Source: a virus. From it: DNA of 34,012 nucleotides. This document shows, in pieces, positions 5,699 to 28,830 of this stretch (position 1 is the stretch's first letter; each line of letters starts with the position of its first letter). The stretch lies in the IMG/VR virus record IMGVR_UViG_3300046683_000439, positions 1 through 34,012 of that record. One strand, 5' to 3'. The notes beneath the pieces are model-generated. The model was not told where the DNA came from. It searched no databases and worked only from the letters and a program-made list of their open reading frames with translations. Position numbers and translations under genes: made by a program.

Positions 5699-5853
5699 CG
5701 CCTTCCTCCGCCGTCTCCCCCGTCCCGGTGGGAGGGGATCTCATTGTAGTGCCTCTCAACGTGGATAGTTACGTTGCCTAGGCCTCCGCTATGCCCCGAC
5801 GAACAGGCCGCCAGCAACAAGAGCATGATTGCCAGTGGCCTGGTATGGCGCAT
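5695..5853 (-). CDS. small lipoprotein, possible o-spanin (Rz1-like)
   Basis: This is a 52-aa protein too short for most gene callers. It begins MRHTRPLAIMLLLLAACSSG: a basic N-terminus, a hydrophobic core and a lipobox LAAC with Cys at residue 17. This predicts export and lipidation. The mature part is only about 35 residues, polar and Gly/Arg-rich at the end. Rz1-type outer-membrane spanins are short lipoproteins of this kind, but they are usually Pro-rich and paired with an inner-membrane coiled-coil partner; none is visible nearby. The ATG lies inside the 39-bp dyad at 5840-5878 and has no good ribosome-binding site, so translation may depend on that element. Confidence 0.65.
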   Translation of the reverse strand: MRHTRPLAIMLLLLAACSSGHSGGLGNVTIHVERHYNEIPSHRDGGDGGGRR

Positions 5854-5878
5854 AGCCGTGGGACATCAGCCAGACCAG
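5840..5878 (-). repeat. 39-bp dyad element, copy 1
   Basis: Read on the minus strand, the left arm is CTGGTCTGGC and the right arm GCCATACCAG, around a 19-bp spacer ending CGGCTATGC. It lies between the stop of the 84-aa gene (5880) and the start region of the lipoprotein gene, whose ATG falls within the spacer. Three other copies with the same arm and spacer lengths occur at 9206, 16531 and 28792. No T-run follows, so it is not a standard terminator. Confidence 0.8.
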
Positions 5879-5879
5879 T

Positions 5880-6134
5880 CTACCTCCCGATCGCCCCTGG
5901 GTGGTGCTTCGCCTGGTAGGCCCCGCCCGTTGCCCCGGTTGCGCCGGTATCCCCTCCAGTCGGAGGCGGCGGCATACCCTCCACCACCACCCCTGGATGA
6001 CGAAGGGCAGCGGCAGTCGCTTCCCGGGTCTCCGGCTTGTCGGAGAGCGGCGGGCGGTGATAGGAATCGAGACCGATTCCCGAATCGTCTGTGGTGGGGG
6101 TCGGATCAGGGACAGTCACTTTCACTTCAGCCAT
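5880..6134 (-). CDS. hypothetical Pro/Gly/Thr-rich late protein
   Basis: This 84-aa product starts MAEVKVTVPDPTPTTDDSG. Start 6134 was chosen for the very strong AAAGGAGGAA upstream; an ATG at 6218 lacks one. The N-terminal ten residues could be a strand, the rest is disordered and includes a GATGATGGA repeat. No function was recognised. It overlaps the preceding gene's stop by 8 bases and ends directly before dyad copy 1. Confidence 0.65.
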   Translation of the reverse strand: MAEVKVTVPDPTPTTDDSGIGLDSYHRPPLSDKPETREATAAALRHPGVVVEGMPPPPTGGDTGATGATGGAYQAKHHPGAIGR

Positions 6135-6546
6135 GGGTAGTTCCTCCTTTGGAAGGCTTGGGTTTGGTCTTCGTTCTGTGCTTCGTTTTCCGCCTCGCAT
6201 GAGCAGCGGCTCCGACACTCGGGGACCCCGTCATCTCCCGCAGCCCGGCCAGGGTCGGATCGGCGCCTGGCAGCCCATCGGAAGGCGGCGGCATACCGAT
6301 CCCTCCCGAGAGGCCGAGTTCCGGCGGGACGCCCCCTGGCGGGATGGGGCCTCCCCCGGTCGAGAGGGATTCCCCGCATTGGGGGCAGAAGTTTGGGTGC
6401 TTGATAGCATTGGCAGGGTTGGGGCCGATCGGGGCCGCACCCCCGGAGGAGGCAGCAGAATGGGTGTGGTGGGGCTTGTGGCCGACGGAGGTTGGGATGG
6501 TGGACTTCTCTCCGTAGGCGGAGGATCTTGCGTTCTGGAGGGTCAT
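6127..6546 (-). CDS. Pro-rich protein with one zinc-ribbon-like CxxC
   Basis: This is a 139-aa protein with AAAGGAGCC upstream of ATG 6546. Residues 48-58 read PNFCPQCGESL, the first half of a zinc ribbon; no second CxxC follows, so a metal site would need a partner. The remainder is Gly/Pro-rich, then a strongly basic C-terminus (HARRKTKHRTKTKPKPSKGG) that could bind DNA. Unknown function; it sits between the nuclease gene and the 84-aa gene in the late operon. Confidence 0.65.
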   Translation of the reverse strand: MTLQNARSSAYGEKSTIPTSVGHKPHHTHSAASSGGAAPIGPNPANAIKHPNFCPQCGESLSTGGGPIPPGGVPPELGLSGGIGMPPPSDGLPGADPTLAGLREMTGSPSVGAAAHARRKTKHRTKTKPKPSKGGTTHG

Positions 6547-6570
6547 CGGTGGGGCTCCTTTGGTGGCCCG

Positions 6571-7074
6571 TCAGGGGCGGTCCGGCCAATGCCAGACAAG
6601 GGGTCGGAGGCCCGCCCTTTCGAAGGCCTGGAGGGGAGAATCGAGGAACTCCTCGGTATCTTGGGGCGGTCGCCAGATATTCCGGAAGACCTGGACTCCA
6701 ACCACCGGCCTTTTAAGAACCGCCACAAGGACTGGGACATATAGTGCCAATTGCTGGAGAGCATCATCCGTCTGGGTGAGCTTGACTTCCAAGCAGAGGG
6801 CTGGAAGCCCGATAGCCAGCGGGACCACCAGGATATCTGGCTGGCAGTAGTTGGTTCCTCGTTGGTCGGCGAAGCGGACCCAAGGGCCGTGGTGTACCTT
6901 TCCAGGAGTGCCAGAGTCTCCGAGGAGTCGCCCGACCCGTCTCGCCACTCGCTTCTCATATCGGAGTCCCTCCAGCCGGACGCCCTTGAGACGGGGGATC
7001 TGATGGCTTGGTGGAGGACTCGTAAGCGTCGCGTACAGAATCGGCGGGACTAGCTCTCGGTACGATGTCCTCAT
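6571..7074 (-). CDS. PD-(D/E)XK-type nuclease next to the small terminase gene
   Basis: In the 167-aa form (ATG 7074) a nuclease core is visible: Glu40 in LRYEKRVARR, then HHGPWVRFAD, Asp80 in NYCQPDILVV, and Glu96/Lys98 in CLEVKLTQTDDA, followed by a conserved-looking QLALYVPVL helix and VVGVQVFRN. The E...D...ExK order fits PD-(D/E)XK nucleases such as VRR-NUC or resolvase-like phage enzymes that trim branched DNA before packaging. The start is uncertain: 7074 gives a 119-base overlap with the small terminase gene and has no clear ribosome-binding site, while a GTG near 6946 is the alternative but would lose Glu40. The frame downstream of 6955 is secure. Confidence 0.7.
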   Translation of the reverse strand: MRTSYRELVPPILYATLTSPPPSHQIPRLKGVRLEGLRYEKRVARRVGRLLGDSGTPGKVHHGPWVRFADQRGTNYCQPDILVVPLAIGLPALCLEVKLTQTDDALQQLALYVPVLVAVLKRPVVGVQVFRNIWRPPQDTEEFLDSPLQAFERAGLRPLVWHWPDRP

Positions 7075-7783
7075 CGGGTACGTCGATGATGCCACTTGCC
7101 GATCCAAGATCGGGACTTGGTTTGGAGTTTTGATTGGTGGGCTCCTCTGGAGAAATGGTGCGGACAGCGACCTTGCCTTCTTGGGTTGCCGCCTCCTTGA
7201 GCCGGGCGAGGACCGCTGGCCCGATGAAGTTAACATCGATAGTTTGCTTGGTCCCATGGCCGAGCCGGTCCAGGCCAGAGTTGACCGCCCGTTGGAGTTC
7301 GTCGGTGGAGATGAGGTCAGGGTTGTCAACAAGGCGCTCGTGGAGGACCGTCAGGGCATCGAGGGTCGCGGAGGTGAGGCGGGAGGTGAGGTCCGCCCCG
7401 ATCTCATCCCGCCTCCCCCGATAGAAGGAGACAAGGTCAGCAAAAGAAGGATCCCTTTGGAGGATGCTAATCCTCGACTGCGAGAACCCAACAATCGCCG
7501 AGATCTCCACCGCCCGGATCCCCTGTGCGAGGAGGCGAGCAATTTGATGATGGATCTCCCGTACTCTTGCCAGTGGGATCGGCTTGACGCCCAGGTTCCG
7601 CTGATCGGCACGAGTTTCCTCCCCTTGTTGGAGGTCCCTCACCACAGACCAGTAGAGAGGGACGTCGGCCAGCTCTGGCTCGGGGCCTGTGCGAAGGCCA
7701 AGAGAATTCTCCCATAGCCCCGCTTGGGGCCCCCTAGCATCAGACACTCGTTGGTTGAGGAGGTCTTCCGCTCTTTGGTCCAT
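6956..7783 (-). CDS. small-terminase-like HTH protein
   Basis: This 275-aa protein is the first gene of the minus-strand late block. Residues 76-112 read EIHHQIARLLAQGIRAVEI then IVGFSQSRISILQRDPSF, a helix-turn-helix of the type found in phage small terminases and related DNA-binding proteins. Beyond it are a helical segment (LTSRLTSATLDALTVLHERL) and a polar tail. The role proposed is recognition of phage DNA for packaging by TerL, inferred from the HTH, the neighbouring nuclease and terL in the same operon. The ATG is only 7 bases downstream of a consensus-like -10 box, so the mRNA may be leaderless. The frame runs upstream to 8125, but that stretch overlaps the promoter and has noncoding composition. 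Confidence 0.72.
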   Translation of the reverse strand: MDQRAEDLLNQRVSDARGPQAGLWENSLGLRTGPEPELADVPLYWSVVRDLQQGEETRADQRNLGVKPIPLARVREIHHQIARLLAQGIRAVEISAIVGFSQSRISILQRDPSFADLVSFYRGRRDEIGADLTSRLTSATLDALTVLHERLVDNPDLISTDELQRAVNSGLDRLGHGTKQTIDVNFIGPAVLARLKEAATQEGKVAVRTISPEEPTNQNSKPSPDLGSASGIIDVPDEDIVPRASPADSVRDAYESSTKPSDPPSQGRPAGGTPI

Positions 7784-7790
7784 GGCCTGA

Positions 7791-7819
7791 ATAGTACGCC
7801 GCCCTGGGGGGAAAGTCAA
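7791..7819 (-). promoter_or_regulatory. sigma-70-type late promoter
   Basis: On the minus strand, TTGACT (7819-7814) is followed after exactly 17 bases by TACTAT (7796-7791), five of six consensus bases in each box. Transcription would begin about 7 bases downstream, at or next to the small-terminase ATG (7783). This would start the whole leftward late operon with host RNA polymerase, in line with the absence of a phage RNA polymerase gene in the window. Confidence 0.7.
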
Positions 7820-8152
7820 GGGAGTTCTTAGGCTGCTCCTTGGGGGTGACGGTATGGGGGGAACCAGGTTAGTGGAAGTCCAGGGAAAGCGGTGAAATTT
7901 TCTGAAGAAGATAGTGCTTGGAGCGGCCCGCCCCAAGGGGGGTGGCGGGAGGGGCTCGATGCGAGTGCGAGTCATTCGCAGGGGACAGGAGGCGCATTGA
8001 ATAGCAGGGGGCGCAATAATATTCCAAAGAAAATTAGCAGGGTACCCTTGAAAGCATGGGGACTCGATACCATCTCCACGGTGTCGGTCGGGTTTCGGCC
8101 CGCCGGTGGCCAACGCGGTCTCCACCCCCGCTAGTTGTTACTCATTGTCAAC

Positions 8153-8195
8153 GAGTCCAAAGGGCGCAGGCATCCCGCTTGCGCGCGGCGGACTC
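8153..8195 (+). promoter_or_regulatory. structured 5' leader of the first early gene
   Basis: GAGTCC (8153-8158) can pair with GGACTC (8190-8195), enclosing an inner hairpin in which GCGCA (8164-8168) pairs with TGCGC (8180-8184). A 14-base stretch, GGCATCCCGCTTGC (8169-8182), recurs exactly at 12283-12296 in another gene leader. AGGAAG follows and ATG is at 8218. It could be an RNA-level control element; no known riboswitch was recognised. Confidence 0.5.
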
Positions 8196-8217
8196 CTAGC
8201 AGGAAGTCAAACCTACC

Positions 8218-8799
8218 ATGGATAAGACTCATACACTTGAGGCGACCCTTTCCTTTACCATCCGCGCTTTCCCGGGGCGGGTCTTCAATTTGGAGACCGA
8301 CAAGATGTCGAACTACGCTGTGGAACGCGGCCTCGTTGTAGCGGCCCGGCAAATCGTGGGCGACGCTATCGGCGGGAAAAAGAGCCCGGAAAAGAAATTG
8401 GCAATCGCTTATCGGAAGATTGCTCGGCTTCAAACCGGCACTCTTGGCGAAGGAACATTCGGGGCGAAGATCACAAGACTCGAAAAAGCTCTACGGACCA
8501 TCCTGATAACGAAGCTCGAAAACGAAGGTATGAAGACCGCGAAAGCGACTAAACTAGTCGCACAGCAACCCGTCGAAATGGTCTATCGGGGCTTTTACGA
8601 AAAAGATGGCCTCTCTCTCGAAGAGGCCAACAAGAAATGGAACGCAGTTGTCGAACGCGGCAGGATGATGGTCAAAATCGCGAGTGATGATGGCAATATT
8701 GACCCGGACGAAGAAGTGGACGATGACGCCAATGACGAGTCGGAAGATGCCGATGAGTCGGAGGAGGCGCCAGAGTCCAATACCGAAAGCGCCGCGTAA
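8218..8799 (+). CDS. first early gene: 193-aa protein with acidic tail
   Basis: This protein of unknown function begins MDKTHTLEATLSFTIRAFPG. Residues 1-60 look like mixed strand/helix with VFNLETDKMSNYAVERGL. Residues 70-130 are helical and basic (KSPEKKLAIAYRKIARLQ, KITRLEKALRTILI). The last 35 residues are almost entirely Asp, Glu and Ser. An acidic tail on a basic body is seen in ssDNA-binding proteins and in DNA mimics; neither is established here. It is the promoter-proximal rightward gene, with a structured leader before it and a hairpin terminator directly after it, so it is probably made in large amounts early. Confidence 0.8.
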   Translation: MDKTHTLEATLSFTIRAFPGRVFNLETDKMSNYAVERGLVVAARQIVGDAIGGKKSPEKKLAIAYRKIARLQTGTLGEGTFGAKITRLEKALRTILITKLENEGMKTAKATKLVAQQPVEMVYRGFYEKDGLSLEEANKKWNAVVERGRMMVKIASDDGNIDPDEEVDDDANDESEDADESEEAPESNTESAA

Positions 8800-8811
8800 T
8801 TCCCAACAATC

Positions 8812-8841
8812 CCCGGGGGCATAATGCCCCCGGGCTCTTTT
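8812..8841 (+). terminator. Rho-independent terminator after the first early gene
   Basis: A 9-bp stem, CCCGGGGGC / GCCCCCGGG, surrounds loop ATAAT and is followed by CTCTTTT. It lies 13 bases after the 193-aa gene stop and only 15 bases before the next ATG. It may act as a partial terminator that lowers expression of the next gene. Confidence 0.75.
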
Positions 8842-8855
8842 AGGAGTCTATCCCA

Positions 8856-9071
8856 ATGAAGTTCCACAATGGCGAGCCGGTCCTGGATCATTCCGCAATT
8901 CTTTCCTATGTCCGGGCACTTCAAGCCGTCAATCGGGCACAACGGAATGTCGAGTCTATCGAACGTACGTTCCCCAAAATTCGCCAGTACGCGAAGGAGA
9001 CGATCGAGTCTGATATCGGCAGATTACTTCAGAAATGCGACGAACTTCGAGCAATGGCCGAGTTGCTCTAA
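8856..9071 (+). CDS. small helical early protein
   Basis: This 71-aa protein of unknown function starts MKFHNGEPVLDHSAILSYV. TAGGAG lies upstream of ATG 8856. It appears entirely helical and amphipathic after residue 12 (VRALQAVNRAQRNVESIE, IGRLLQKCDELRAMAELL), consistent with a coiled coil or small helical bundle. It is bracketed by two strong hairpin terminators, so with the preceding gene it forms a short separate transcription unit. A second helical protein of equal length lies at 9983-10198; I see no clear sequence identity. Confidence 0.7.
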   Translation: MKFHNGEPVLDHSAILSYVRALQAVNRAQRNVESIERTFPKIRQYAKETIESDIGRLLQKCDELRAMAELL

Positions 9072-9076
9072 CGATC

Positions 9077-9108
9077 AGCCCCGGGCAGCAATGCCCGGGG
9101 CTTTTCTT
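9077..9108 (+). terminator. Rho-independent terminator ending the first early unit
   Basis: An 11-bp perfect stem, AGCCCCGGGCA / TGCCCGGGGCT, has loop GCAA (a GNRA tetraloop) and is followed by TTTTCTTT. It is the strongest terminator in the window and begins 6 bases after the 71-aa gene stop. Confidence 0.88.
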
Positions 9109-9205
9109 TGCCTCCCAGTATCCCAATTCGTGGGAGAGGAGCGCCCGTAGGAGGGGCAAGGGAGGGAAGGAGTATTAAAGTTCGTGAGGGTGCAGCGCCC
9201 ATTGG

Positions 9206-9244
9206 CTGGTATGGCCGATGATCCTGGTAGATGAGCCATACCTT
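9206..9244 (+). repeat. 39-bp dyad element, copy 2
   Basis: The left arm is CTGGTATGGC and the right arm GCCATACCTT (last two bases off), with a 19-bp spacer, CGATGATCCTGGTAGATGA. It is the most divergent of the four copies in both right arm and spacer, and it lies in the long 9.1-9.5 kb gap about 100 bp after the terminator. Confidence 0.7.
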
Positions 9245-9415
9245 AAGGTTAGTGTCAGTCAGTCAGTCATACTACCCGGCACCTTAAGCGGGACCGTACT
9301 CTATCCTTTATTCAGTTTTTTTTTTTTTTACTGAAAGGGCTCTCTTAGCCTGGTCCCCCTAACCTCCAGTCCCCTCATAATGCCGGGTGCCCCTACTGAC
9401 TCACCCCCTTTCCTA

Positions 9416-9444
9416 TTGACAACTCCATCAATCCGTGATACAAT
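9416..9444 (+). promoter_or_regulatory. sigma-70-type early promoter
   Basis: TTGACA (9416-9421, perfect) and TACAAT (9439-9444, five of six) are separated by 17 bases. The next gene starts at 9474, after AGGAGG, giving a leader of about 20 bases. This is the best promoter match in the window and would drive the rightward cluster from 9474. Confidence 0.85.
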
Positions 9445-9473
9445 CTTATGATGGTAACAACAGGAGGCATTCG

Positions 9474-10198: not shown

Positions 10199-10287
10199 AA
10201 TAAGTTTGCACCAGGGATCTTGTCCCAACAAGCAGCGCAACCCATGTCTTAAAGACTAACTATTTACACCAGAAAGGAAGCCCTCTA

Positions 10288-10578
10288 ATGAAGAAAGGAC
10301 TAACCTCCGCCAGAGAGTGTGCCCCCAAAAGGTGCACTTGCGGAGCCAAGCTAGGCAGGCCCTCCTACGGCTATCCCTGGCTCAACGCCAAGGAGACTAC
10401 CTATTTCGGGTATGAGTGGTGCGCTTTTGATGCCCCCATCAAAGAGAAGGTCTGGCATATCAAATGCACCTGTGGCCTCCGCCATATCTGGTCCTTCCAC
10501 CAGTCCTCGAACGGCTGCTGGAAGGTGCGGAGCGACCTCCCCCTCTTCGACAGCCATCAAATCCTCGTTGTAGCATAA
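10288..10578 (+). CDS. 96-aa zinc-ribbon-like early protein
   Basis: This starts MKKGLTSARECAPKRCTCGAKLG after GAAAGGAAG. Cys residues are spaced as RCTCG near residue 17 and KCTCG near residue 60, each followed by a hydrophobic or basic strand (KLGRPSYG, LRHIWSFHQSS). This is a typical two-knuckle zinc ribbon. The 40 residues between are aromatic and charged. It probably binds nucleic acid or protein through a structural zinc; no named family was recognised. Confidence 0.72.
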   Translation: MKKGLTSARECAPKRCTCGAKLGRPSYGYPWLNAKETTYFGYEWCAFDAPIKEKVWHIKCTCGLRHIWSFHQSSNGCWKVRSDLPLFDSHQILVVA

Positions 10579-10591
10579 GGAGACAACGCCA

Positions 10592-11686: not shown

Positions 11687-11926
11687 ATGAACTACTCCCT
11701 AATAATAACAGGGAAATCTTCCCATCCCACCCTCCACCATGTCTTCGAGTCCACTTCCAACACGATGGCCCTCGAATACGCGGTTCGGCAGAGCAAACTG
11801 ATCGCCAGCCCCAAGTATTGGGAGTTCGTCCTCTTCCGGACGGAGGGGGAAGATCAGGAGGTCCTCCGCGCTTGGGACGTGCACCTCCACGAGGTGGTCA
11901 AGCTGACGCCTGCGAAGAAGGACTAA
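11687..11926 (+). CDS. small early protein, unknown
   Basis: This 79-aa protein starts MNYSLIITGKSSHPTLHHVF. Start 11687 was chosen for GAAGGAGCC upstream. Strand and helix alternate (NYSLIITG, MALEYAVRQSKLI, YWEFVLFRTEG, EVLRAWDVHLHEVVKL), giving a compact alpha/beta fold of no recognised family. It sits in a tightly spaced run of similar small genes, with 5 bases to the next ATG. Confidence 0.65.
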   Translation: MNYSLIITGKSSHPTLHHVFESTSNTMALEYAVRQSKLIASPKYWEFVLFRTEGEDQEVLRAWDVHLHEVVKLTPAKKD

Positions 11927-12870: not shown

Positions 12871-13149
12871 ATGATCACCCTCAAGATTGCCGGCACCAAG
12901 TACTACCCGGTAGAGCAGCCCCCGGTAGGGACGGTCCTCGCCTTGGAGGCAGACCCGGAAAATCGCTTCGACTCCAACGCGATCAAGGTCCTCGACGACG
13001 AAGGGGACCAGCTGGGCCACGTCCCGGCACCAGCGGCAGCGGTGATGACCCTCTACGCGGGAAGGGTAGGCTACCCAGTCGGGAAGCTCTTCATCGCCAA
13101 GATGGAGGAGGGAGAGAGTTTCACCCTCGATATGGTGGACGAGCTATGA
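12871..13149 (+). CDS. HIRAN-domain protein
   Basis: The 92-aa product is essentially one HIRAN domain: TKYYPVEQPPVGTVLALEAD, then NRFDSNAIKVLDDEGDQLGH, then VPAPAAAVMTLYAG. The NxxDxNAI(K/R)V core and the following G-x-VP are the hallmarks. HIRAN domains bind 3' ssDNA ends or damaged DNA and are often joined to SNF2-type helicases. Here it stands alone, one gene upstream of a UvrD-like helicase, so the two may act together at stalled or broken replication forks. AAAGGAAAG precedes the start, and its stop overlaps the next ATG. Confidence 0.8.
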   Translation: MITLKIAGTKYYPVEQPPVGTVLALEADPENRFDSNAIKVLDDEGDQLGHVPAPAAAVMTLYAGRVGYPVGKLFIAKMEEGESFTLDMVDEL

Positions 13150-16319: not shown

Positions 16320-16526
16320 ATGAATATCAAGCTAACCATGACATTCTCTCGAACCCTCTCCCTCGAGGCCATCAAGGAGGAGTATGGGGAGAGGCTGGCA
16401 CTCGAAGAAGGGGACGACCCTATGGAAGTGTTGATCGAGTACATGAACGACAACGGGCTCGAGTTCTTCGAGGAGGAAGACCAGGCCCAGTGGGATCATA
16501 CCCCGGACGCAGTGCCGGTTAAGTGA
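16320..16526 (+). CDS. 68-aa acidic early protein
   Basis: Starts MNIKLTMTFSRTLSLEAIKE with TAGGAGG upstream. A short strand (IKLTMTFSRTL) is followed by a helix (EAIKEEYGERLAL) and an acidic helix (DDPMEVLIEYMNDNGLEFFE). Strongly negative overall (ends EEEDQAQWDHTPDAVPVK). Function unknown; acidity would allow DNA mimicry, but nothing specific supports that. Dyad copy 3 starts 5 bases after its stop. Confidence 0.65.
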   Translation: MNIKLTMTFSRTLSLEAIKEEYGERLALEEGDDPMEVLIEYMNDNGLEFFEEEDQAQWDHTPDAVPVK

Positions 16527-16530: not shown

Positions 16531-16569
16531 CTGGTCTGGCCTTTGGCGTGGGGCTATCGGCCAGACCAC
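16531..16569 (+). repeat. 39-bp dyad element, copy 3
   Basis: Left arm CTGGTCTGGC, right arm GCCAGACCAC (last base off), 19-bp spacer CTTTGGCGTGGGGCTATCG. The GGGGCTATC portion of the spacer is shared with copy 4. It lies directly after the 68-aa gene stop. Confidence 0.82.
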
Positions 16570-16686
16570 TCCCTCCCAAACAATCTTCGCCAGGGGGCAA
16601 AATACTTCTTGATCCCTCCCCCAATGTGTGGGAAGATCTTCTCGTCAACAAACCGGCCCATCAGGGCCCAAAAAAGGAGCGACACT

Positions 16687-17241
16687 ATGAACTTCACTGC
16701 TGATACGCCCACCACTACCTGCACCGTCTATGGGCTGACCTTCTCCATCCCCCAGCCCTTCAAGGAGGGGGACGCCCTCAAGCCGAACGAGGCGGATGCA
16801 ATGAATCAGTTGTTGATCGAGAACTGCCGCAACAACTTCAACTCCACCATCTACGACCTGGTGAAGGAGCGGGGCCTGCAGGTCAACAACGAGCCGGCCG
16901 ATTCCGCCAACCTCCCGGAGGAAGACAAGCAGAAGCTCCAGGCGGACTTCACCCAATACGTGGCGGAGTACGAGTTCGGACAGCGGAAGGGTGGACAGCG
17001 GTTTGCTGATCCTGTCGTCCGCGAGGCCCGGGATATCGGGAAGTCCAAGATCCGGCCCGCCCTGTTGAAGGCCGGTGTCAAGGCCGGGGATATCACTTCC
17101 GAGGTGATGAATACCCACCTCGACAAGTACTGGCCTGTCCACGGCGAGAAGTGGATGGCGCAGGCCCGGCAGATCATCGCCCTCCGCGAGGCTGCGGCGG
17201 CGGAAAGCCTGGAAATCACCCCGGCGGAAGTTGCGGCATAA
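16687..17241 (+). CDS. 184-aa early/middle protein, unknown
   Basis: Starts MNFTADTPTTTCTVYGLTFS; AAAAAAGGAG precedes ATG 16687. The N-terminal 50 residues contain strands and a helix (NEADAMNQLLIENCRNNF). The body is helical (KLQADFTQYVAEYEFGQR, VVREARDIGKSKIRPALLKA, WMAQARQIIALREAAAAE). The order FGQR, RDIGKSKIRPAL, ...KY...EKW.AQA suggests an RNA- or DNA-associated helical protein but no family was identified. The hairpin terminator following directly, and dyad copy 3 upstream, make it a single-gene unit that is probably highly expressed. Confidence 0.75.
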   Translation: MNFTADTPTTTCTVYGLTFSIPQPFKEGDALKPNEADAMNQLLIENCRNNFNSTIYDLVKERGLQVNNEPADSANLPEEDKQKLQADFTQYVAEYEFGQRKGGQRFADPVVREARDIGKSKIRPALLKAGVKAGDITSEVMNTHLDKYWPVHGEKWMAQARQIIALREAAAAESLEITPAEVAA

Positions 17242-17289: not shown

Positions 17290-18156
17290 ATGGATTACCG
17301 ATTCTCTGGAGACTTCTCGAAGGTCCCACTCGGGGCCTTTACTGTCAGCAACAAGAAGGCAGTTTGGAATGACCCGGCCTCTGCCGGGGTGACCACCGAC
17401 TCCGACCCGAATGGGCAGTTCTTCGAGATCGTCGAGGATGACCGCTTCCCTGGAGGCCGGGCTTGCCGCCAGAAGTACCCGAAAGGTGAGCATGGCACCA
17501 ACTCCAAGCAGTACTACGTCCGGTATAAGAAGCCCGGCACGATCGCGAACCTCGAATACACTATGTGCTTCGAGGACGGCTTCTCCTTCATGACCCCCAA
17601 CACCAGCAAGGTTTGCGTGGGCAAGATCGGCCCACAGATTAACTGGGGGGAGGTTGGAGGGCCCACGGAAGGGCGGGGCTCCCGCTCGATGTGGATCTTC
17701 AACGGGGGAGGGAGTAACTACCCGAACCCGAAGCTTTGCCCCGCTGGGCAGGACCAACGGACGGGCAATCCTCTAATCTCCCCTCCTGTCTACGGACCGA
17801 AGATCGTCACCGAGACGCTCTACAAGCTTCGGAGCCAGTTCCGCGGCGGGCCTGGTGGAATGATGAAGTGGTGGATCGACGATGCTCTGGTCGCGGAAGA
17901 GCATGGGGACTATCAGGTCACCTCCACCGACGACGTGATCTACGACTTTTCTTTCTGGCATGGTGGGGCCAGCGCCGACTACGCCCCGGAGTGGGATTCC
18001 TACGCCCTCTGTGGCGGGGTGAGGATGTGGAGCGGGGAGGAGTATTGGGAGGAAAAGGAGCCTGCTCCGCCCATCCCTGCCACTCCTGGCGTAACCGTCG
18101 AAATCGAAGGGGTGATCTACGAGGTGAGCGGAGCGTTGAAGCTCACCCGCCGATGA
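17290..18156 (+). CDS. jelly-roll polysaccharide-lyase-like protein (PL14/concanavalin-like)
   Basis: This is a 288-aa protein starting MDYRFSGDFSKVPLGAFTVS after GGAGGGAACG. It is beta-rich throughout. The signature blocks are YYVRYKKPGTIANLEYTMCF, FMTPNTSKVCVGKIG, SRSMWIFNGGG, a late helix-free core LRSQFRGGPGGMMKWWIDDA, and the end YDFSFWHGGASADYAPEWDS, YALCGGVRMWSG. This layout (Gly-rich core strand, W-W-DD strand, F-HGG-x-A-P-x-WDSY, then xxVRxW) resembles family 14 polysaccharide lyases and related concanavalin-like sugar-binding folds. A C-terminal 45-residue extension holds Pro-rich linker and a short hairpin (VTVEIEGVIYEVSGALKLTR). No signal peptide. Presence in the early block, away from tail genes, is unusual. 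Confidence 0.6.
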   Translation: MDYRFSGDFSKVPLGAFTVSNKKAVWNDPASAGVTTDSDPNGQFFEIVEDDRFPGGRACRQKYPKGEHGTNSKQYYVRYKKPGTIANLEYTMCFEDGFSFMTPNTSKVCVGKIGPQINWGEVGGPTEGRGSRSMWIFNGGGSNYPNPKLCPAGQDQRTGNPLISPPVYGPKIVTETLYKLRSQFRGGPGGMMKWWIDDALVAEEHGDYQVTSTDDVIYDFSFWHGGASADYAPEWDSYALCGGVRMWSGEEYWEEKEPAPPIPATPGVTVEIEGVIYEVSGALKLTRR

Positions 18157-18616: not shown

Positions 18617-19154
18617 TCTGGTGGTGCAGATTGATTTTAAGGCTGCTCAGGATGAGGCAGAATATGATCTGAGACAGCACCAATTTCCGGACGGGTTTGT
18701 GTGCGATTGCCCACAGTGTAATGCGGCCCGCGCCTACCTCGACATGGTGGCGGAGCGGGATCTCTATACGAAGCTGGCCGAGAATGGGACGCAATATCTC
18801 CAAGGGCTTGAGGCTCAAATAGCTGCCATGTCGGCGGAGCAGGATGAGGCGCAGAAAGCTTACGCGAGACTGCTCAAATACACAGACGGGATCGAGGATC
18901 ATCTTGCTTGGCATTACGCCCAACTCGCCGCCAGCGAGGCCACTCTCACCGACATGCGTATGAAATGGAGCGCAGCAGAAATCGTGCGGGATCAAGCTAT
19001 TGATCGACTGAACCGCAGCGGAGTTGCGCGGGGGAGGCTGCGGGAGGCGTTGGAGAAGATGAGCAAAGAGCCTGGGATTGGTGTAATGGCCCAGCGTATG
19101 GCCCGCGAAGCCCTTTCAAAAAAGGAAGTTGACAGCGATGCCAAGGAAGAATGA
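18606..19154 (+). CDS. coiled-coil protein with N-terminal CxC-x2-C motif
   Basis: This is a 182-aa protein from GTG 18606, supported by AAGGGAG seven bases upstream. Residues 30-41 read GFVCDCPQCNAARAYL, a Cys cluster that may bind metal. From 45 to 170 it is one long helical, coiled-coil-like region (AAMSAEQDEAQKAYARLL, ATLTDMRMKWSAAEIV, RLREALEKMSKEP). Probably an oligomeric scaffold or tether; function unknown. It overlaps the zinc-ribbon gene by 11 bases and the next gene by 17. Confidence 0.68.
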   Translation: MVDDLVVQIDFKAAQDEAEYDLRQHQFPDGFVCDCPQCNAARAYLDMVAERDLYTKLAENGTQYLQGLEAQIAAMSAEQDEAQKAYARLLKYTDGIEDHLAWHYAQLAASEATLTDMRMKWSAAEIVRDQAIDRLNRSGVARGRLREALEKMSKEPGIGVMAQRMAREALSKKEVDSDAKEE

Positions 19155-19362
19155 AATAGGGCTCGAGAAGGTCACGATAAGGATCTTCAAAGGCGACCTC
19201 GATGCGATCAACCGCTACTACCCCACGACAGGGCACAACGTCGTGATCAGGAAGTTGATCCGGAAGCACTTGCGAAAGATGGAGGAGCTTGACAGCCAGA
19301 GGCGAGCCCTTCTCGACAAGTCTGGCGAGATAGAGATAGAAGTGGAACCAAAACATGAGTGA
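19138..19362 (+). CDS. ribbon-helix-helix-like small DNA-binding protein
   Basis: This is a 74-aa protein from ATG 19138, with AAAAAGGAAG upstream. Residues 8-50 read LEKVTIRIFKGDLDAINRYY, then GHNVVIRKLIRKHLRKMEEL: a beta strand followed by two helices, the usual ribbon-helix-helix order of CopG/Arc-like regulators. The tail is acidic (KSGEIEIEVEPKHE). Likely a DNA-binding regulator of early genes. Overlaps the next gene by 8 bases. Confidence 0.68.
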   Translation: MPRKNEIGLEKVTIRIFKGDLDAINRYYPTTGHNVVIRKLIRKHLRKMEELDSQRRALLDKSGEIEIEVEPKHE

Positions 19363-22815: not shown

Positions 22816-24270
22816 ATGTCTACTGCCTACGTTCCTATCGACTCGATCAGGATTGAAAGCCGCCAGAGGAAAATTCTCGATGATGGGAAGGGGAATGATC
22901 TGATAGAGACTTCTCTTGCGGCACTCAAGGAATCCATTAACCGAGTAGGTTTGATTAATCCTATTACCATCACGAAGAGTCATTTCCTGATCGCAGGGGA
23001 GCGCCGACTGACGGCCTGCCGCGAATTGGGGCACCAGGAGATCTTCGTTAGGTACTTCGAAGACCTCGCCCCCCTGGAGAGGAAGAAAGTCGAACTCGAT
23101 GAGAACATCCGGCGGGCCTCCCTAACCTGGCAGGAACGCGCGATCGCCATCCTGGAATACTATGCCCTTTCCGGCGGGGACTCGGAGCCTTCCTACACCC
23201 AGGACCGTTGCGCGGAGGAACTAAACATCTCCGCTACCAACGTCGGACGGAGCATAACAGTGGCGAAGGTGCTCGTCGAGCAGGAGGATCTCCCGGAGGG
23301 GAAGAGAGACCTTCCCATCTTGATGAGCACTACTCTCAACGAAGCTTACGGGCTGTTAACCAAGCGGCGCGATCGGAAGATCGAGACCGAATTGGCACAG
23401 CTCGACGATGATCCTGTGGGTGGCTTGGCTTCCTCCCCACAGGTGGCGGCGGAGGCTGATACTCCGACCATCAGCCTTGGGGAGGGAGAGGCTTCGCCCC
23501 CACGTTCCCCTCTCCCTCCCACGCCGGCCTTCCGAGAAGGTCCGAGAAGTCCCTGGCTCGACCTCCAACAGTCTGATTTCATCCAATGGATCTCCGACTA
23601 CGATGGGAGGAAATTCAACTTCCTCCACTGTGATTTCCCATACGGCCTCAACATTGGGGAGAGTGCACAGGTCCGCACCGAGACTGGGAGGAACGATGCC
23701 TACCATGATTCTGAGGAATTATACTGGGCACTCTGCCAATGCTTGGCAGCTAATCTTGATCGAGTCCTATTCCCTTCGGCTCATGTCATGTTTTGGTTCT
23801 CGCTCAAGTACTACCAGGCCACGGTTGATTTCTTCAGGACAAATACGGACCTGGTTGTTCAAGACTTCCCCCTCATCTGGCATAAGTCAGACAACAAGGG
23901 TGTCGTACCTGACGCTCAGAGACAGCCGAGAAGGGTCTACGAGACTTGTCTTATTATGGCCCGAGGAGATAGGAAGATCATTCGAGTCGTAAGCAATTGT
24001 TATCCGGCCCCGACCGGGGATCTCCACACCTCCGAGAAGCCGGAACCCATGCTCCGACACTACTTCGGGATGTTCGTAGATGAGTTGACGGAGATGCTGG
24101 ACCCAACCTGTGGGTCTGGCGGAGCCCTCCGCGCTGCGGAATCGTTGGGAGCAAAGCGGGTATTCGGCCTTGACACTTCGAAAGAATTCCTCGATGTCGC
24201 GGCCCAGCAGCTTCTCAATTCCCGTCGGCTTCGCCTAGCCCACGAGCTGCTCAATGCTCGTCAAGCCTGA
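22816..24270 (+). CDS. ParB-like domain fused to DNA methyltransferase
   Basis: This is a 484-aa protein. Residues 5-100 form a ParB/Srx-type domain: VPIDSIRIESRQRKI, VGLINPITI, and LIAGERRLTACRELG (the GERR box). Residues 104-155 contain a helix-turn-helix (CAEELNISATNVGRSITVAK). A Pro/Glu linker spans about 200-245. The methyltransferase part has motif IV CDFPYGLNI (residues 272-280; DFPY is a D/N/SPPY variant) and, later, motif I as DPTCGSGGALRAAE with GLDTS: the IV-before-I order of beta-class amino-methyltransferases (N6-A or N4-C). ParB-methyltransferase fusions occur in phages and probably modify phage DNA against restriction. No restriction partner is seen. Confidence 0.88.
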   Translation: MSTAYVPIDSIRIESRQRKILDDGKGNDLIETSLAALKESINRVGLINPITITKSHFLIAGERRLTACRELGHQEIFVRYFEDLAPLERKKVELDENIRRASLTWQERAIAILEYYALSGGDSEPSYTQDRCAEELNISATNVGRSITVAKVLVEQEDLPEGKRDLPILMSTTLNEAYGLLTKRRDRKIETELAQLDDDPVGGLASSPQVAAEADTPTISLGEGEASPPRSPLPPTPAFREGPRSPWLDLQQSDFIQWISDYDGRKFNFLHCDFPYGLNIGESAQVRTETGRNDAYHDSEELYWALCQCLAANLDRVLFPSAHVMFWFSLKYYQATVDFFRTNTDLVVQDFPLIWHKSDNKGVVPDAQRQPRRVYETCLIMARGDRKIIRVVSNCYPAPTGDLHTSEKPEPMLRHYFGMFVDELTEMLDPTCGSGGALRAAESLGAKRVFGLDTSKEFLDVAAQQLLNSRRLRLAHELLNARQA

Positions 24271-25369
24271 CCATCCAACGGAGGCCTTCTGTGGGATCGC
24301 GATTGTCGGGGAGGCTCCTGGCAGAGAAGAAGAGATGTTCGGCCGACCTTTTGTTGGGACGACAGGTCGGGTCCTTGACAAGATGCTCGAACACGCAGGG
24401 ATTGATAGAAAGGCTTGCTTCCTCACAAACCTCTTCAACGAAAGGCCAGCCAACAATGACCTCAAACTCTTCTGTTCCGACAAGCGAACCGCCCACGGAA
24501 GCTACCCGGCTCGACGTGGCGATCTCGTTCAAAACTATCCAACCTACCCGTGGCCCGCGAAGTACAGCTGGCCCTCACTGGTCCCTGGCGGGTACTGTAG
24601 TTCCGACAAGCTCGGATGCCTTGCCAGACTTCACGCGGAGCTTACAGCGATCGCTCCGACAGTTATTATTGCAGCTGGGAATACGGCCTGCTGGGCGGTC
24701 CTTGGTAGGACAGGAATTAGCAAGCTTAGAGGGTCCGTCGCTTTCGCTAACTATCTCAGTGGGACAAAAGTCCTTCCTACTTTCCATCCATCCGCAGTCA
24801 ATCACGACTGGGCGCTCCGGCCGACGGTCATCGCGGACCTCCAAAAAGCTCTCCGAGAGTCCACAACAAGAGAGCATGTCAGCAAACGGAGAAGAATCAT
24901 CCGAGTCCCAGAGTACATCTTCGAGGCACAGTCCCTCATCAACGAGCTCTGGGGAGCCAAGTCCCTCTCCATCGATATCGAAACCAAGCTCAAAACTATC
25001 GAGTCCATTAGCTTCAGCCCTGATCCTGACCGATCCAGCGTCTTCGTCTTCTACGACAAGGCCAAGCCTGGACGAAGTGCATGGACAAAACAAGAGGAGT
25101 TCCAAATAGTCAAGGGGCTCCGTCAACTCCTAATGAGCCCTATCCCAAAGACGTTCCAGAACGGACTCTACGATCTCCAATACATCTGGTCCTGCTGGAA
25201 GTGCCCGACCAAGAACTTCGAGCATGATACTATGCTACTCCACCACTCCCTGCAACCCGAGCTTCCCAAGTCGTTGGGCTTCATGGGGAGTGTCTACACT
25301 GACGAGATATCCTGGAAATTGCTTCGGGCCCTCGTCGATTCCGAGACTACAAAACGAGAGGATGAATAG
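24254..25369 (+). CDS. uracil-DNA glycosylase fused to DnaQ/PolA-type 3'-5' exonuclease
   Basis: This is a 371-aa two-domain protein. Residues 13-205 are a family 4/5-like uracil-DNA glycosylase: IVGEAPGREEEMFGRPFVG, ACFLTNLFNERPANND and, near 177, FHPSA. From about 220 a DEDD exonuclease follows: SLSIDIETK (ExoI, D-x-E), FQNGLYDLQYIW (ExoII, N-x3-D) and HDTMLLHHSLQPELPKSLGF (ExoIII). The exonuclease looks like the proofreading domain of family A polymerases. The polymerase itself is a separate gene, 540 bases on. Uracil removal and proofreading joined in one chain would act at the replication fork. It overlaps the methyltransferase gene by 17 bases. Confidence 0.82.
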   Translation: MLVKPDHPTEAFCGIAIVGEAPGREEEMFGRPFVGTTGRVLDKMLEHAGIDRKACFLTNLFNERPANNDLKLFCSDKRTAHGSYPARRGDLVQNYPTYPWPAKYSWPSLVPGGYCSSDKLGCLARLHAELTAIAPTVIIAAGNTACWAVLGRTGISKLRGSVAFANYLSGTKVLPTFHPSAVNHDWALRPTVIADLQKALRESTTREHVSKRRRIIRVPEYIFEAQSLINELWGAKSLSIDIETKLKTIESISFSPDPDRSSVFVFYDKAKPGRSAWTKQEEFQIVKGLRQLLMSPIPKTFQNGLYDLQYIWSCWKCPTKNFEHDTMLLHHSLQPELPKSLGFMGSVYTDEISWKLLRALVDSETTKREDE

Positions 25370-25371
25370 TG

Positions 25372-25599
25372 ATGAAACTCCGAACCATCTGCCTACTCTT
25401 GGCAGCAACCCTTTCCCTGGGAGCAACGACAGATGCCCAAAGCACGAAGCACTGCCGACATCTTGCGGTCCCTGCCACCCGTCAAGGTGGATACCTTGCA
25501 GCAGTTTGTTGTTGCGCCGACTCCGCAGGAAATCTCTGCTGTGTTCAGCAAGGTTACTGCGGAAACGTACTCCTCGCCTGCCCGAGCTGTAATTACTAA
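25372..25599 (+). CDS. small exported Cys-rich peptide (overlaps next gene in another frame)
   Basis: This is a 75-aa product starting MKLRTICLLLAATLSLGATT: a typical signal peptide, cleavage expected near residue 22 (TDAQ). The mature part holds nine or more Cys (VCCCADSAGNLCCVQQGYCG, ACPSCN), a density found in metal-binding or disulfide-rich peptides. GAGAGG lies ten bases upstream. Bases 25433-25599 are also read in another frame by the DUF7768-like gene. I recall similar short Cys-rich phage proteins with CCC...CC...C endings, but cannot name a family. The unused 63 bases at its start would otherwise be noncoding. Confidence 0.55.
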   Translation: MKLRTICLLLAATLSLGATTDAQSTKHCRHLAVPATRQGGYLAAVCCCADSAGNLCCVQQGYCGNVLLACPSCNY

Positions 25600-25912
25600 G
25601 CTGCCCTTGGTTGTGGTGGAGTCCCCTCTCAAGGGGCTCCATCGCCACATCGCGGAGAGCTACGCAGAGGCAGCCTGCTGGGACTGCATGACCCGAGGAG
25701 AAGCCCCATTCGCCAGCCACCTCATCTACACTCGCTACCTCGACGACAACAACCCTGAGTCCCGTCAGATAGGGATGCACTGTGGAAGGGCCTGGATTCG
25801 CGCTGTGGACTACATGGTGGTCTATACTGATCTTGGGGTCTCGGAGGGGATGGCGATCGCGGTAGGCATCGCCGAGAAGCTCAAAAAGATAGTGGAGTTC
25901 CGTACCCTGTGA
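25433..25912 (+). CDS. DUF7768-like (nucleoside deoxyribosyltransferase-fold) protein
   Basis: This is a 159-aa protein from ATG 25433. Residues 57-159 match a small phage family: LPLVVVESPLKGLHRHIAES, CWDCMTRGEAPFASHLIYTR, YLDDNNPESRQIGMHCGRAW, AVDYMVVYTDLGVSEGMAIA and the end KIVEFRTL. It resembles the DUF7768/DUF4406 type, related to nucleoside 2-deoxyribosyltransferases. Conserved ESPLKG, GEAPFASH and DLG-S-GM lie near the presumed nucleotide pocket. A nucleotide-handling role beside the polymerase is plausible. The N-terminal 56 residues are an extension; a shorter start is possible. Confidence 0.7.
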   Translation: MPKARSTADILRSLPPVKVDTLQQFVVAPTPQEISAVFSKVTAETYSSPARAVITKLPLVVVESPLKGLHRHIAESYAEAACWDCMTRGEAPFASHLIYTRYLDDNNPESRQIGMHCGRAWIRAVDYMVVYTDLGVSEGMAIAVGIAEKLKKIVEFRTL

Positions 25913-27504
25913 AAGTCTTCGACACAACGAGGGACAACGCCTGGGCCTTGACTGGCGCTATGGCGGGAGCAGTCTACAATGGGCTCGATTCCGCCCTGAC
26001 AGCGGAAATCCGGGACGTGCTCCTCCCTCAATTGGAGCCCCACTCCAAACTAATCTACGATTTCGAGAGGGCCTGTCAGGCCCCAGCCCTTTACATGATG
26101 CTCCGGGGCCTTCGAGTAGATCCCTTCGCGAGAGGTGCTGCGATCCGCCACTACGAGAAATCTATCCTCCGGTGTCAGTGGATGCTGGACAGGTTGGCCT
26201 CGGTCTTTGGGATGACTGGACTTAACCCTAACTCTCCTAAGCAGTTGAAGGAGTTCTTCTATGGCCGTCTTAAGATTCCCGAGCAGACTACCTATTACAG
26301 GGGAGAGCGAAAGGTTACTACCAACCGGGATGCCCTCGAAAAGATCCGAGACCACTATTTCGTCGCAGTCCCCTATATCTCTCTCATCCTGGCTATTAGA
26401 GACTTTGTTAAGACTCGGAGCGTCCTCGTCTCAGGGGTGGACCCTGACGGTAGAATGCGGACCTCCTACAATATTGGAGGCACAAACTCTGGAAGGTGGA
26501 GCTCTTCCGCCAATGCGTTTGGAACTGGTACTAACTTCCAGAACCTCCGGGAAGACCTGCGCCAGATATTCATCGCTGATGAGGGGAAGAAGTTCGCGTA
26601 TATTGATCTCGAAACTGCTGAAAGCCGTGTGGTCGGTGCGAGGGGATGGCAAGTAACGAGGGCGAAAGGGCCGGGGAGGGATGGATATTGGAGGGCCTGT
26701 GAAGATGGCGACCTCCATACCTATGTGGCGAAGATCGTCTGGCCGAATTTCTCCTGGACGGGGGACAAGGTTGCCGATAGGAGGATCGCCGATCAAATCT
26801 TCTACCGGCACCATTCCTACCGACAAACGACAAAGGTGGGAGGCCATGGGAGCAACTATCTCGGGAGGCCTCCCACCATGTCCAAGCATACCAAGATCCC
26901 GGAACCTATGATGGCGGCCTTTCAGGCCTCATACTTCAAGGGCTTTCCAGAGATACCAGAGTGGCACATGGCAACCATCCGCACGTTGATGACGGAGGCT
27001 GCTATCACTACTCTCCTCGGCCGGAAGAGGGTTTTCTTTGGTCGCCTTGACGACGAAGCAACCTGGCGAGAGGGTGTCGCCTACGAACCACAGTCAGTGG
27101 TGGGGGATACTCTTAACCTTGGCGCGTGGCGGATCTGGTACTACTTGTTCCCGAAGGTGGAGTTGGTGGCCCAGATCCACGACGCGGTGCTTGTCCAATA
27201 TGATGAGGCTGATGAAGCGGAGGTGCTGCCGCAGGCTCGGAAACTGATGGAGGTTCCAATCCAGGTCGATGAGAGGTTGCTCATCATCCCCACGGAGGCC
27301 CTAGTTGGATGGAACTGGAACAAGGCCCACGACTCCAACCCCGATGGGCTCAAAAAATGGACAGGGACAGATGGTAGAACCCGTACCAATAACCAGGGCC
27401 TCTCCCTCTTGGATAGACCTGTTCATCAAATACTGCCGGGACTTACCCACTCCACCAATCTTCAAAGAGTGGGGAGCGTTGGCAGCCCTCTCGGCAGTCG
27501 TTGA
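25909..27504 (+). CDS. family A DNA polymerase lacking its exonuclease domain
   Basis: This is a 531-aa protein from GTG 25909 (GTGA overlap with upstream stop). Polymerase motifs: TNSGRWSS at 192-199, FQNLR at 210-214, motif A AYIDLETAE (Asp233, Glu238), motif B YRQTTKVGGHGSNYLG (Arg305, Lys309) with His313 where E. coli Pol I has Phe762, and motif C AQIHDAVLVQ, with Asp425 but Ala426 in place of the usual Glu. The palm metal ligands (D233, D425) remain. There is no 3'-5' exonuclease; that domain is the C-terminus of the glycosylase fusion just upstream. The last 45 residues are odd, run 134 bases into the helicase frame and have no polymerase features. Confidence 0.88.
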   Translation: MKVFDTTRDNAWALTGAMAGAVYNGLDSALTAEIRDVLLPQLEPHSKLIYDFERACQAPALYMMLRGLRVDPFARGAAIRHYEKSILRCQWMLDRLASVFGMTGLNPNSPKQLKEFFYGRLKIPEQTTYYRGERKVTTNRDALEKIRDHYFVAVPYISLILAIRDFVKTRSVLVSGVDPDGRMRTSYNIGGTNSGRWSSSANAFGTGTNFQNLREDLRQIFIADEGKKFAYIDLETAESRVVGARGWQVTRAKGPGRDGYWRACEDGDLHTYVAKIVWPNFSWTGDKVADRRIADQIFYRHHSYRQTTKVGGHGSNYLGRPPTMSKHTKIPEPMMAAFQASYFKGFPEIPEWHMATIRTLMTEAAITTLLGRKRVFFGRLDDEATWREGVAYEPQSVVGDTLNLGAWRIWYYLFPKVELVAQIHDAVLVQYDEADEAEVLPQARKLMEVPIQVDERLLIIPTEALVGWNWNKAHDSNPDGLKKWTGTDGRTRTNNQGLSLLDRPVHQILPGLTHSTNLQRVGSVGSPLGSR

Positions 27505-28597
27505 GAGACGAGCGTGGGTCCACTCTGGCCATGGGAATATCTGGCCGAACATCTTTGTCCTTCTGGCGGCACCACCAGGAGGGGGGAAGACCATCATCAC
27601 TCGCGCCATCACCGATCTGATCCACGACATGAAAGTCGACGATTCCCAGAAGCCCAGGCTCGCCGCCAACTCCATGACAAAGAGTGCAATGGTGGATACG
27701 CTCGAGGAAGCAATCCGAGTCCGAGTGATCCCCGGGGAGGGGATCGAAGAGTGGCACTCGATGGCAATTATCAACTCGGAATTCGGGGTGGTCTTCCCGG
27801 CTTATGATCAGGCCTTCCTCTCCCACCTCTCCCACTTCTGGGACTGTGAGAGGCAGTTCGAGGAGCGGACGAGGACCAACAAGAGCAAGTTCATCGCCAA
27901 CCCTCACGTGATGATGTTAGGGGGTATCCAGCCCAAACTCTTGAACGATACCTTTCCTGAGAGTAGTTGGGGCCAGGGCTTCTTTGCCCGCACTACGATC
28001 GTCTACGTCTCGGAGATGCCGAAGGTCAAGTTCTTCCGCAAGACCCTCCCCGACTTCACCGTCAAGACGCAATTAGTCGCAGGTCTTGAACAACTCTCTG
28101 AGAGATGGGGGGAAATATTCTTCTCCCCACTTACCATAGAAGCGTTTGAGACATGGGAGGCAAATGACTTCCAGCCCTTCCCAACTCATCCGCGATTGGC
28201 TGGGTACGTCGAGAGGAGAAAGATACACGCAATTAAACTTGCGATCCTCTTTTGCCTTTCCTCGGGCCACGAGCTGATCGAACTCGAAGACCTCAAGCGG
28301 GCAAGGTCCCTTCTCGAGAGGACGGAGGAAAACTTGGCCGACCTGTTCGTTGCGATGGGGAGTCATGAATTCTCCGCAGTTATGGATGAGACGGTACACT
28401 TCGTCCTGAGAGAGTACGCCCGGACCAAGAAGGCCGTCGGGCAGCAGGCATTGATGGCATTTGTCTCTCGTCGGGCGCAGCCCCTCCACGTCGAGCCGAT
28501 TATCAATACCCTGATTGGGAGTGGCCGACTGCGCCTTGCAACCCCGGAGAACATCATGACAGATCAGCGGGCCTTTGTGCCAGGGACGGAGCTATGA
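27371..28597 (+). CDS. DUF3987-like replicative helicase/ATPase
   Basis: This is a 408-aa protein. Walker A APPGGGKT at 67-74, Walker B-like MAIINSEFGVV near 128, an arginine-finger-like FFARTTIV, and the lead SPSWIDLFIKYCRDLPTPP, EWGALAALSAVVERRAWV all match the group annotated DUF3987, found in mobile elements and phages where it replaces DnaB-type helicases. It probably unwinds DNA for the family A polymerase. No TOPRIM primase was seen in the window. Start is uncertain: ATG 27371 (AGGGA upstream) is preferred over ATG 27344 and TTG 27305; all lie within the polymerase gene. Confidence 0.8.
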   Translation: MVEPVPITRASPSWIDLFIKYCRDLPTPPIFKEWGALAALSAVVERRAWVHSGHGNIWPNIFVLLAAPPGGGKTIITRAITDLIHDMKVDDSQKPRLAANSMTKSAMVDTLEEAIRVRVIPGEGIEEWHSMAIINSEFGVVFPAYDQAFLSHLSHFWDCERQFEERTRTNKSKFIANPHVMMLGGIQPKLLNDTFPESSWGQGFFARTTIVYVSEMPKVKFFRKTLPDFTVKTQLVAGLEQLSERWGEIFFSPLTIEAFETWEANDFQPFPTHPRLAGYVERRKIHAIKLAILFCLSSGHELIELEDLKRARSLLERTEENLADLFVAMGSHEFSAVMDETVHFVLREYARTKKAVGQQALMAFVSRRAQPLHVEPIINTLIGSGRLRLATPENIMTDQRAFVPGTEL

Positions 28598-28785
28598 AAG
28601 TCCTCCACTACATTCCGCTTGATGATCATATCCAGGATATGGTTTGCGTCAAGTGCCTTACACCAGTCAACCAAGTTGGGGGCTCATTCACCACGGATCT
28701 CTCCTACTGGCTTACCCCTCCCGAAGGGTATGAGCGCTGTCTCTTCGATGCTCGGGTTTCTCGGCCGGTGAGACATGGGATATAA
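28594..28785 (+). CDS. 63-aa protein with one CxxC
   Basis: Starts MKVLHYIPLDDHIQDMVCVK; ATGA overlap with the helicase stop. Residues 18-21 are CVKC, and a third Cys lies near residue 49. Strand-like segments (VLHYIPLDDH, GGSFTTDLSYWLT) suggest a tiny zinc-ribbon-like fold. It is the last rightward gene; dyad copy 4 fills the gap to the convergent virion gene. Confidence 0.6.
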   Translation: MKVLHYIPLDDHIQDMVCVKCLTPVNQVGGSFTTDLSYWLTPPEGYERCLFDARVSRPVRHGI

Positions 28786-28791
28786 CTTAGG

Positions 28792-28830
28792 CTGGTATGG
28801 CCTATCAGCCGGGGCTATCAGCCATATCAG
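28792..28830 (+). repeat. 39-bp dyad element, copy 4, in convergent junction
   Basis: Left arm CTGGTATGGC, right arm GCCATATCAG (one mismatch), spacer of 19 bp CTATCAGCCGGGGCTATCA. Together with its edges it makes up the whole gap between the rightward 63-aa gene (stop 28785) and the leftward 1348-aa gene (stop 28832). No T-run on either strand. Confidence 0.85.

Follow-up and report, generated by a model that had tools for sequence, protein, structure and literature searches.

Repeated palindromes at gene borders of an uncultured phage record and their replacement in relatives: candidate sites for a small RHH-like protein

Why should a virus record carry the same 39-bp dyad at four separate gene borders, and what would read it? 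The record, of 34,012 bp, was analysed over its whole length and is called here the window. A first-pass annotation had reported four dyads with a spacer of exactly 19 bp in each of them, and had left two readings side by side, a palindromic binding site for a protein and a conserved RNA stem-loop. All four dyads are present where it had placed them, with this spacing. To choose between the readings, we considered the sequence and place of the copies, the corresponding junctions of related phages and the proteins encoded nearby.

The four copies in the window

A rightward block of genes (8218-28785) diverges from a leftward block (1-8125) and converges on another leftward block (28832-34010). 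The rightward block encodes a UvrD-like helicase, a PD-(D/E)XK nuclease, a Sak4-like protein, a ParB-N/methyltransferase, a uracil-DNA glycosylase, a family A DNA polymerase and a DUF3987/primase-helicase protein; a transglycosylase and a terminase are encoded in the leftward block 1-8125. A stand-alone HIRAN-domain protein (12871-13149) adjoins the helicase gene, and the frame immediately upstream of the terminase fragment (695-919, minus strand) resembles the Acb2/Tad1 hairpin domain weakly, at a level below the cutoff (E 6.6e-5). The Caulobacter podophage Kuura has a layout like that of the window with an undivided structural block (PMC9959647), and because Kuura has this block in one piece, the window probably lacks a middle piece of it. 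A second record of the same phage, L118, shares 12.8 kb with the window and is identical to it there, except that about 40 bp at 25394-25433 of the window are absent from L118 (at 11819-11822). This stretch, which is not a copy of the dyad, is close to where a small frame starts, and the frame begins like a signal peptide. The difference is either true variation or an assembly error at a short repeat. Beyond the right end of the window, L118 carries Gly-X-Y (collagen-like) repeats (570-930) in a probable tail fibre gene.

The four copies are placed as follows.

5840..5878, no strand assigned: copy 1, in the leftward block, starting 1 nt past the stop (TAG, 5880-5882) of gene 5880-6134 on the minus strand
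9206..9244, no strand assigned: copy 2, intergenic in the early region, with a terminator (9077-9102) on one side and a promoter (9416-9444) on the other
16531..16569, no strand assigned: copy 3 ('site B'), starting 4 nt past the end of gene 16320-16526 (stop TGA), with the p184 operon downstream of it
28792..28830, no strand assigned: copy 4, filling the 46 bp that separate two converging genes; it lies 6 nt past the stop of 28594-28785 (plus strand) and 1 nt past the TAG stop of 28832-32878 (minus strand)

The placement at gene borders is thus as first described: all four copies are in non-coding DNA, outside predicted genes, and copies 1, 3 and 4 start 1-6 nt past a stop codon. No further copy was found when the window record was scanned; the next best dyad, at 10447 with a spacer of 24, was rejected as a fifth copy because it lies in an apparent coding frame. 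Near copy 2, in the early region, a T14 tract flanked by TTCAGT/ACTGAA is found at 9305-9345.

The number of copies exceeds what was obtained by simulation, since 40 Markov simulations twice produced a family of 3 dyads with the same gap and the same arms and otherwise families of 1 or 2 at most, compared to 4 in the window. Exact half-sites occur 6 times in the window against 0.3 expected, and five of the six are inside the dyads. Outside the window, a scan of IMG/VR for exact arms with a 19-bp gap returned four other contigs. When gaps from 5 to 35 were scanned, gap 19 gave 5 hits (self included) and gaps 17, 22, 23 and 25 gave 4-6 each; because there is no excess at gap 19, three of the four contigs were taken as chance matches and only one, G014, as real. 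A pattern including the inner AT matched only two contigs, one of which was again G014, already matched by the exact-arm pattern at another place. In a scan of 1.6 Mb with a position weight matrix (PWM) the sites score 30-41 and everything else at most 19, bar one pattern-selected archaeal locus (27). Searches of 84,980 genomes with gaps of 18, 19 and 20 gave 8, 8 and 3 scattered single matches, respectively, and pointed to no host family, and blastn of the consensus site against named phages gave half-site chance matches only.

Repeated sites in related phages

The first-pass annotation had let the element stand or fall with its recurrence in relatives, and it does recur: G014 (IMGVR_UViG_3300027749_000192) has four copies, at 59-97, 7676-7714, 16947-16985 and 36296-36334 (mismatch search and PWM), all with a spacer of 19, and two of them are at junctions orthologous to those of the window. 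The two phages are not close, with 44% identity for the DNA polymerase, 36% for the ParB-methyltransferase and 34% for the helicase; they share about ten genes in conserved order. The copy at 7676 corresponds to copy 3, being just past a stop and directly upstream of a homologue of p184, and the copy at 16947 corresponds to copy 4, since, at the convergent junction that ends the replication block, it overlaps the stop codon of DUF3987 (in the window, copy 4 follows a small gene after DUF3987). It is plausible that the copy at 59 is syntenic with copy 2, both being in an early region by a poly-T tract. The copy at 36296, which comes after a stop codon and belongs to the structural block, is a candidate counterpart of copy 1 by block only. 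The T-rich tract of G014, of about 39 nt (1-40), is beside the copy at 59; together with the T14 tract of the window, it possibly marks an origin or early control region. Among all the phages compared, Kuura is the only cultured one, the remaining records being uncultured and several of them fragments. With the 1348-aa protein, gene 17290-18156 or the terminase as query, no closer relatives of the window were found.

The gene that allows the junction of copy 3 to be followed from phage to phage is the first one downstream of it:

16687..17241, plus strand: p184, first gene downstream of copy 3, recognized by sequence in G014, G003, G004 and G005

In G006 and G007, p184 is seen in the same slot. 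The palindrome motif itself is absent from Kuura, G003, G005-G008 and others (PWM scan), and several relatives have other repeated sites at this junction instead. G003 (IMGVR_UViG_3300009176_000035; L102-L104) carries another palindrome, odd-centred and ~39-41 bp long, in ten copies; these are of the GGTTCGA-TGT-TCGAACC type with the invariant core GGTTCGATGTTCGAACC, mostly at gene borders and one of them upstream of p184; another of its dyads, with a gap of 21 (37544), was discarded as coding or chance. Four sites of the type GGCCAY-N17-RTGGCC occur in G005, one upstream of p184. Upstream of p184 in G004 (IMGVR_UViG_3300050821_012443; L105) there are tandem GAATTCGGA units; the sequence [AC]GAATTCGGA has 22 copies in 20 kb of this record, all on the early-gene strand and none on the other, many of the units are at gene borders, and the repeat, being oriented, looks stoperator- or SAS-like. 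G007 has a 39-bp palindrome upstream of p184, with partial repeats elsewhere, and G006 a weaker 30-bp palindrome there, with one related copy. Palindromicity upstream of p184, taken alone, is a weak statistic in the window, G003, G005, G006 and G004. A more distant relative, L011, has AT-rich palindromes around TTCAAAATTTGAAC at 1546, 13652 and 21082, possibly another site family. For the window, G014, G003 and G005 together, 13 of 22 sites are between -5 and +12 nt of a stop codon, against 0.5 expected anywhere and about 3 expected in non-coding DNA.

DNA palindrome or RNA stem

The degenerate arms first proposed, CTGGTMTGGC and GCCAKAYCAG, fit copies 1 and 4 fully, but copies 2 and 3 only with mismatches in the right arm (two in copy 2, which ends in CCTT, and one in copy 3, which ends in CCAC). 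The paired changes that had been read at arm position 6 turned out to be weak evidence of pairing: A or C occurs in either half and in copy 1 the pair is broken, one half having C and the other A. The other deviations in the arms are uncompensated, with the sole exception of a G-U on one strand in copy 4. Nor does copy 1 have the minus orientation ascribed to it, as no orientation is preferred, its spacer giving 59/114 identities with the others on either strand. The partial conservation of the spacer held up well: its identity is far above that of shuffles (p < 5e-5). Alignment of the eight halves gives a half-site TnGnCTGGTMTGGCYnATnnnCC, i.e. each copy consists of two half-sites of ~19-23 bp around one central base, with AT at positions 13-14 and CC at positions 18-19 in most halves, and G at position -2 in 7/8. 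The 'spacer' is conserved symmetrically and so belongs to the site.

If the dyads were kept for pairing in RNA, then the two halves of a copy should agree better with each other than with the halves of other copies. They do not. In the window, halves of the same copy agree at 51/76 positions, and the 105 possible re-pairings average 52.1. With flanks included, the corresponding values are 58 against 59.0 in the window, 57 against 55.9 in G014, 145 against 150 in G003 and 46 against 45 in G005, which for the four phages pooled gives 306 matches against 310 expected; the test has little power in the window or G014 alone, with four copies each, and the ten copies of G003 carry most of it. Covariation of the arms, which the first-pass annotation had suggested, is thus found neither in the window phage nor in G014 or G003, where agreement within copies equals that of random re-pairing.

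A conserved RNA stem-loop behind stop codons, acting as a processing site, a 3'-end stabiliser or a factor-dependent terminator, would account for several observations. Copies 1, 3 and 4 start 1-6 nt past a stop, in sense; copies 3 and 4 out-fold their shuffles as RNA (z -3.9 and -3.1, respectively); pairing in copy 4 extends to 14 pairs; and TCTTTTT follows the copy at 36296 of G014 on the minus strand. Against this, copy 1 folds no better than its shuffles (z 0.0) and, as noted from the start, no T-run follows any of the four window copies. None of them is included in the list of intrinsic terminators of the window, and Rfam covariance models gave no match at any copy, with E up to 1. The inner positions 13-14 are conserved although the adjacent positions 15-17 are mostly unpaired, which is not what a stem would lead one to expect, and the TGT core of the G003 sites, invariant and asymmetric, faces in either direction relative to the genes and fits DNA better than RNA. 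Because there is no covariation, the halves agreeing no better than when re-paired, we regard the RNA stem-loop as rather unlikely. Of the two readings initially left side by side, the conserved half-sites and the symmetric 'loop' argue for the protein site, and the pattern of conservation favours a DNA palindrome read as two half-sites.

Candidate binders and known systems

The operon behind copy 3 consists of p184, a protein of 70-90 aa, a protein of 65-75 aa, often a short acidic protein, and then the PD-(D/E)XK nuclease. Two candidate binders besides p184, and two promoter-like stretches near the copies, have to be considered.

19138..19362, plus strand: RHH-like protein of 74 aa, conserved in seven syntenic phages (that of the window included) and encoded in each of them in the slot that precedes the PD-(D/E)XK nuclease
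22816..24270, plus strand: fusion of a ParB-N domain with an N6-N4 methyltransferase, an alternative candidate DNA-binding protein, conserved in relatives
9416..9444, plus strand: TTGACA-17-TACAAT, a strong sigma-70-like promoter where the early block begins; copy 2 lies 172 bp before it
16609..16637, plus strand: weak promoter-like stretch, TTGATC-17-GAAGAT, downstream of copy 3, read from sequence

Homologues of the 65-75-aa protein are found in the seven phages with hmmsearch E values of 5e-39 to 0.02 (weakest in G005), the profile having been built from three of the seven members. An AlphaFold model from the seven sequences, with pLDDT of about 90 or more in blocks 11-50, predicts a strand-like segment followed by two helices; in a two-sequence model the strand is explicit. 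VIA-align superposes the model on the ParD1 antitoxin at 1.5 Å over 48 residues with a Z of 4.8, a score that alone is not decisive. Foldseek with the model gave no strong match, and Pfam, PHROGs and PDB sequence searches gave no RHH match (Pfam and PHROGs were negative for all seven members); the label 'RHH-like' comes from the model and the sequence pattern, with no family match behind it. Because its gene sits behind the conserved site, because of its predicted class and because it is conserved alongside changing site families, this protein would most likely be the binder of the palindromes.

The reading that we favour, with somewhat better than even confidence, is that a phage-encoded dimeric or tetrameric protein, most likely the RHH-like one, binds the dyads as half-sites of ~20 bp, with an effect on transcription. 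A dimer, or a dimer of dimers, would occupy each palindrome. The phage keeps one copy at each of four junctions: in the early control region, ahead of the operon of the RHH-like protein, within the leftward (structural) block, and at the end of the replication block, where genes converge. From copy 3 the protein would repress its own operon. A promoter of the type TTGACN-17 lies between the site and p184 in G014, G003 and G005 and is also readable in G004 and G007; the sequences at the place of the weak stretch of the window are TTGACA-17-CATTAT in G014, TTGACG in G003 and TTGACC in G005, G007 and G004. Copies 1 and 4 have no promoter-like match alongside, so that simple promoter repression does not explain them, and an enrichment of promoters beside sites is not clear overall. 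Copies other than copy 3 may act as an operator, a transcription roadblock or insulation just behind stop codons. Each phage lineage would then have its own variant of the protein and its own matching site family. A fast-evolving operator or roadblock network is in our opinion the best explanation of the sites, and both its binder and its effect are what we infer.

The palindrome could also be bound by another protein, such as the ParB-N/methyltransferase, p184 or a host factor, perhaps in segregation or packaging. The first of these, which joins a ParB N-terminal domain to an N6/N4 DNA methyltransferase, is kept in most of the relatives examined, and p184 is conserved in relatives as well; p184 is, in addition, the first gene after copy 3, and the spread of the sites around the genome would suit such a role. 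However, the gene of the ParB-methyltransferase is away from the conserved site in the window, and the sequence of the sites is wholly changed between relatives, which a small fast-evolving phage protein fits better than a host factor. We therefore find a different binder improbable. Harmless insertion behind stop codons of a small palindrome that moves or recombines (a REP/MITE-like element, or a linker for module exchange) would agree with the gene-end location, the two core orientations in G003 and the presence of copies in more than one phage, but is very unlikely, as there are no target duplications, flanks are unshared, the same junctions are kept at about 40% protein identity despite divergence of the DNA around them, and the palindrome is not enriched in cellular or other viral genomes.

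How would binding by the RHH-like protein compare with what is known? T7-type RNase III processing hairpins are intercistronic dyads repeated along a podophage genome, and in this they are alike; they differ in being RNA structures. For the sites described here, covariation was tested and not seen. The operators of RHH repressors (Arc, ParD, NikR, omega) are palindromic or repeated and are bound by small beta-alpha-alpha dimers, which usually autoregulate their own operon. The window sites share their palindromic character, but RHH operators are shorter and local, and we know of no genome-wide set of them at phage gene ends. The ESAS of Cluster K mycobacteriophages consist of inverted repeats of 17 bp, separated by a spacer of variable length, and immediately precede the 13-bp SAS at start codons (PMC3203893). 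Like the window sites, ESAS are imperfect inverted repeats of unassigned function that related phages retain at the same genes; unlike them, the window sites have a spacer fixed at 19 and mostly follow stop codons, and so do not match the definition of an ESAS.

The nearest known system is that of the Cluster A mycobacteriophage stoperators (L5, Bxb1, TipsytheTRex), 13-bp asymmetric sites that occur more than 20 times per genome, oriented with transcription; they bind a monomeric, HTH-containing repressor, which blocks the elongation of transcripts (PMC9283540, PMC6550527). In both cases one motif is repeated in short intergenic spaces (the window and G014 have four copies each, those of the window in non-coding DNA). 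As far as sequence comparison can tell, one site fronts the transcription unit of the regulator, here a candidate one, and the motif is lineage-specific and diverges along with a syntenic regulator gene, again a candidate here. By contrast, the sites described here are palindromes of 39-47 bp, 4 per record and without fixed orientation, with a candidate binder that is RHH-like; a Pfam scan of the predicted proteins gave no match to a repressor or HTH family in a record that is incomplete and whose small frames were only partly covered. Since stoperators have an asymmetric sequence, follow the direction of transcription and are recognized by a monomer that contains an HTH, the window sites, on this comparison, are not members of that system. 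More tentatively, and with somewhat less than even confidence, we propose that in a podophage-like clade an RHH-like regulator and gene-end palindromes co-evolve fast, the junctions being kept and the words replaced, as an independent invention of the stoperator principle. If true, this would be an undescribed network, differing from stoperators in the fold of the binder and the symmetry of the site. Uncultured phages are mostly without known regulators, and sites that are stable in position and change in sequence, together with a conserved small protein, would offer a handle on the timing or silencing of gene blocks. Should the RHH-like protein indeed bind these sites, the seven phages would provide seven natural protein-site pairs for studying the rewiring of DNA recognition, and genome-wide networks of gene-end operators would have arisen outside actinobacteriophages too.
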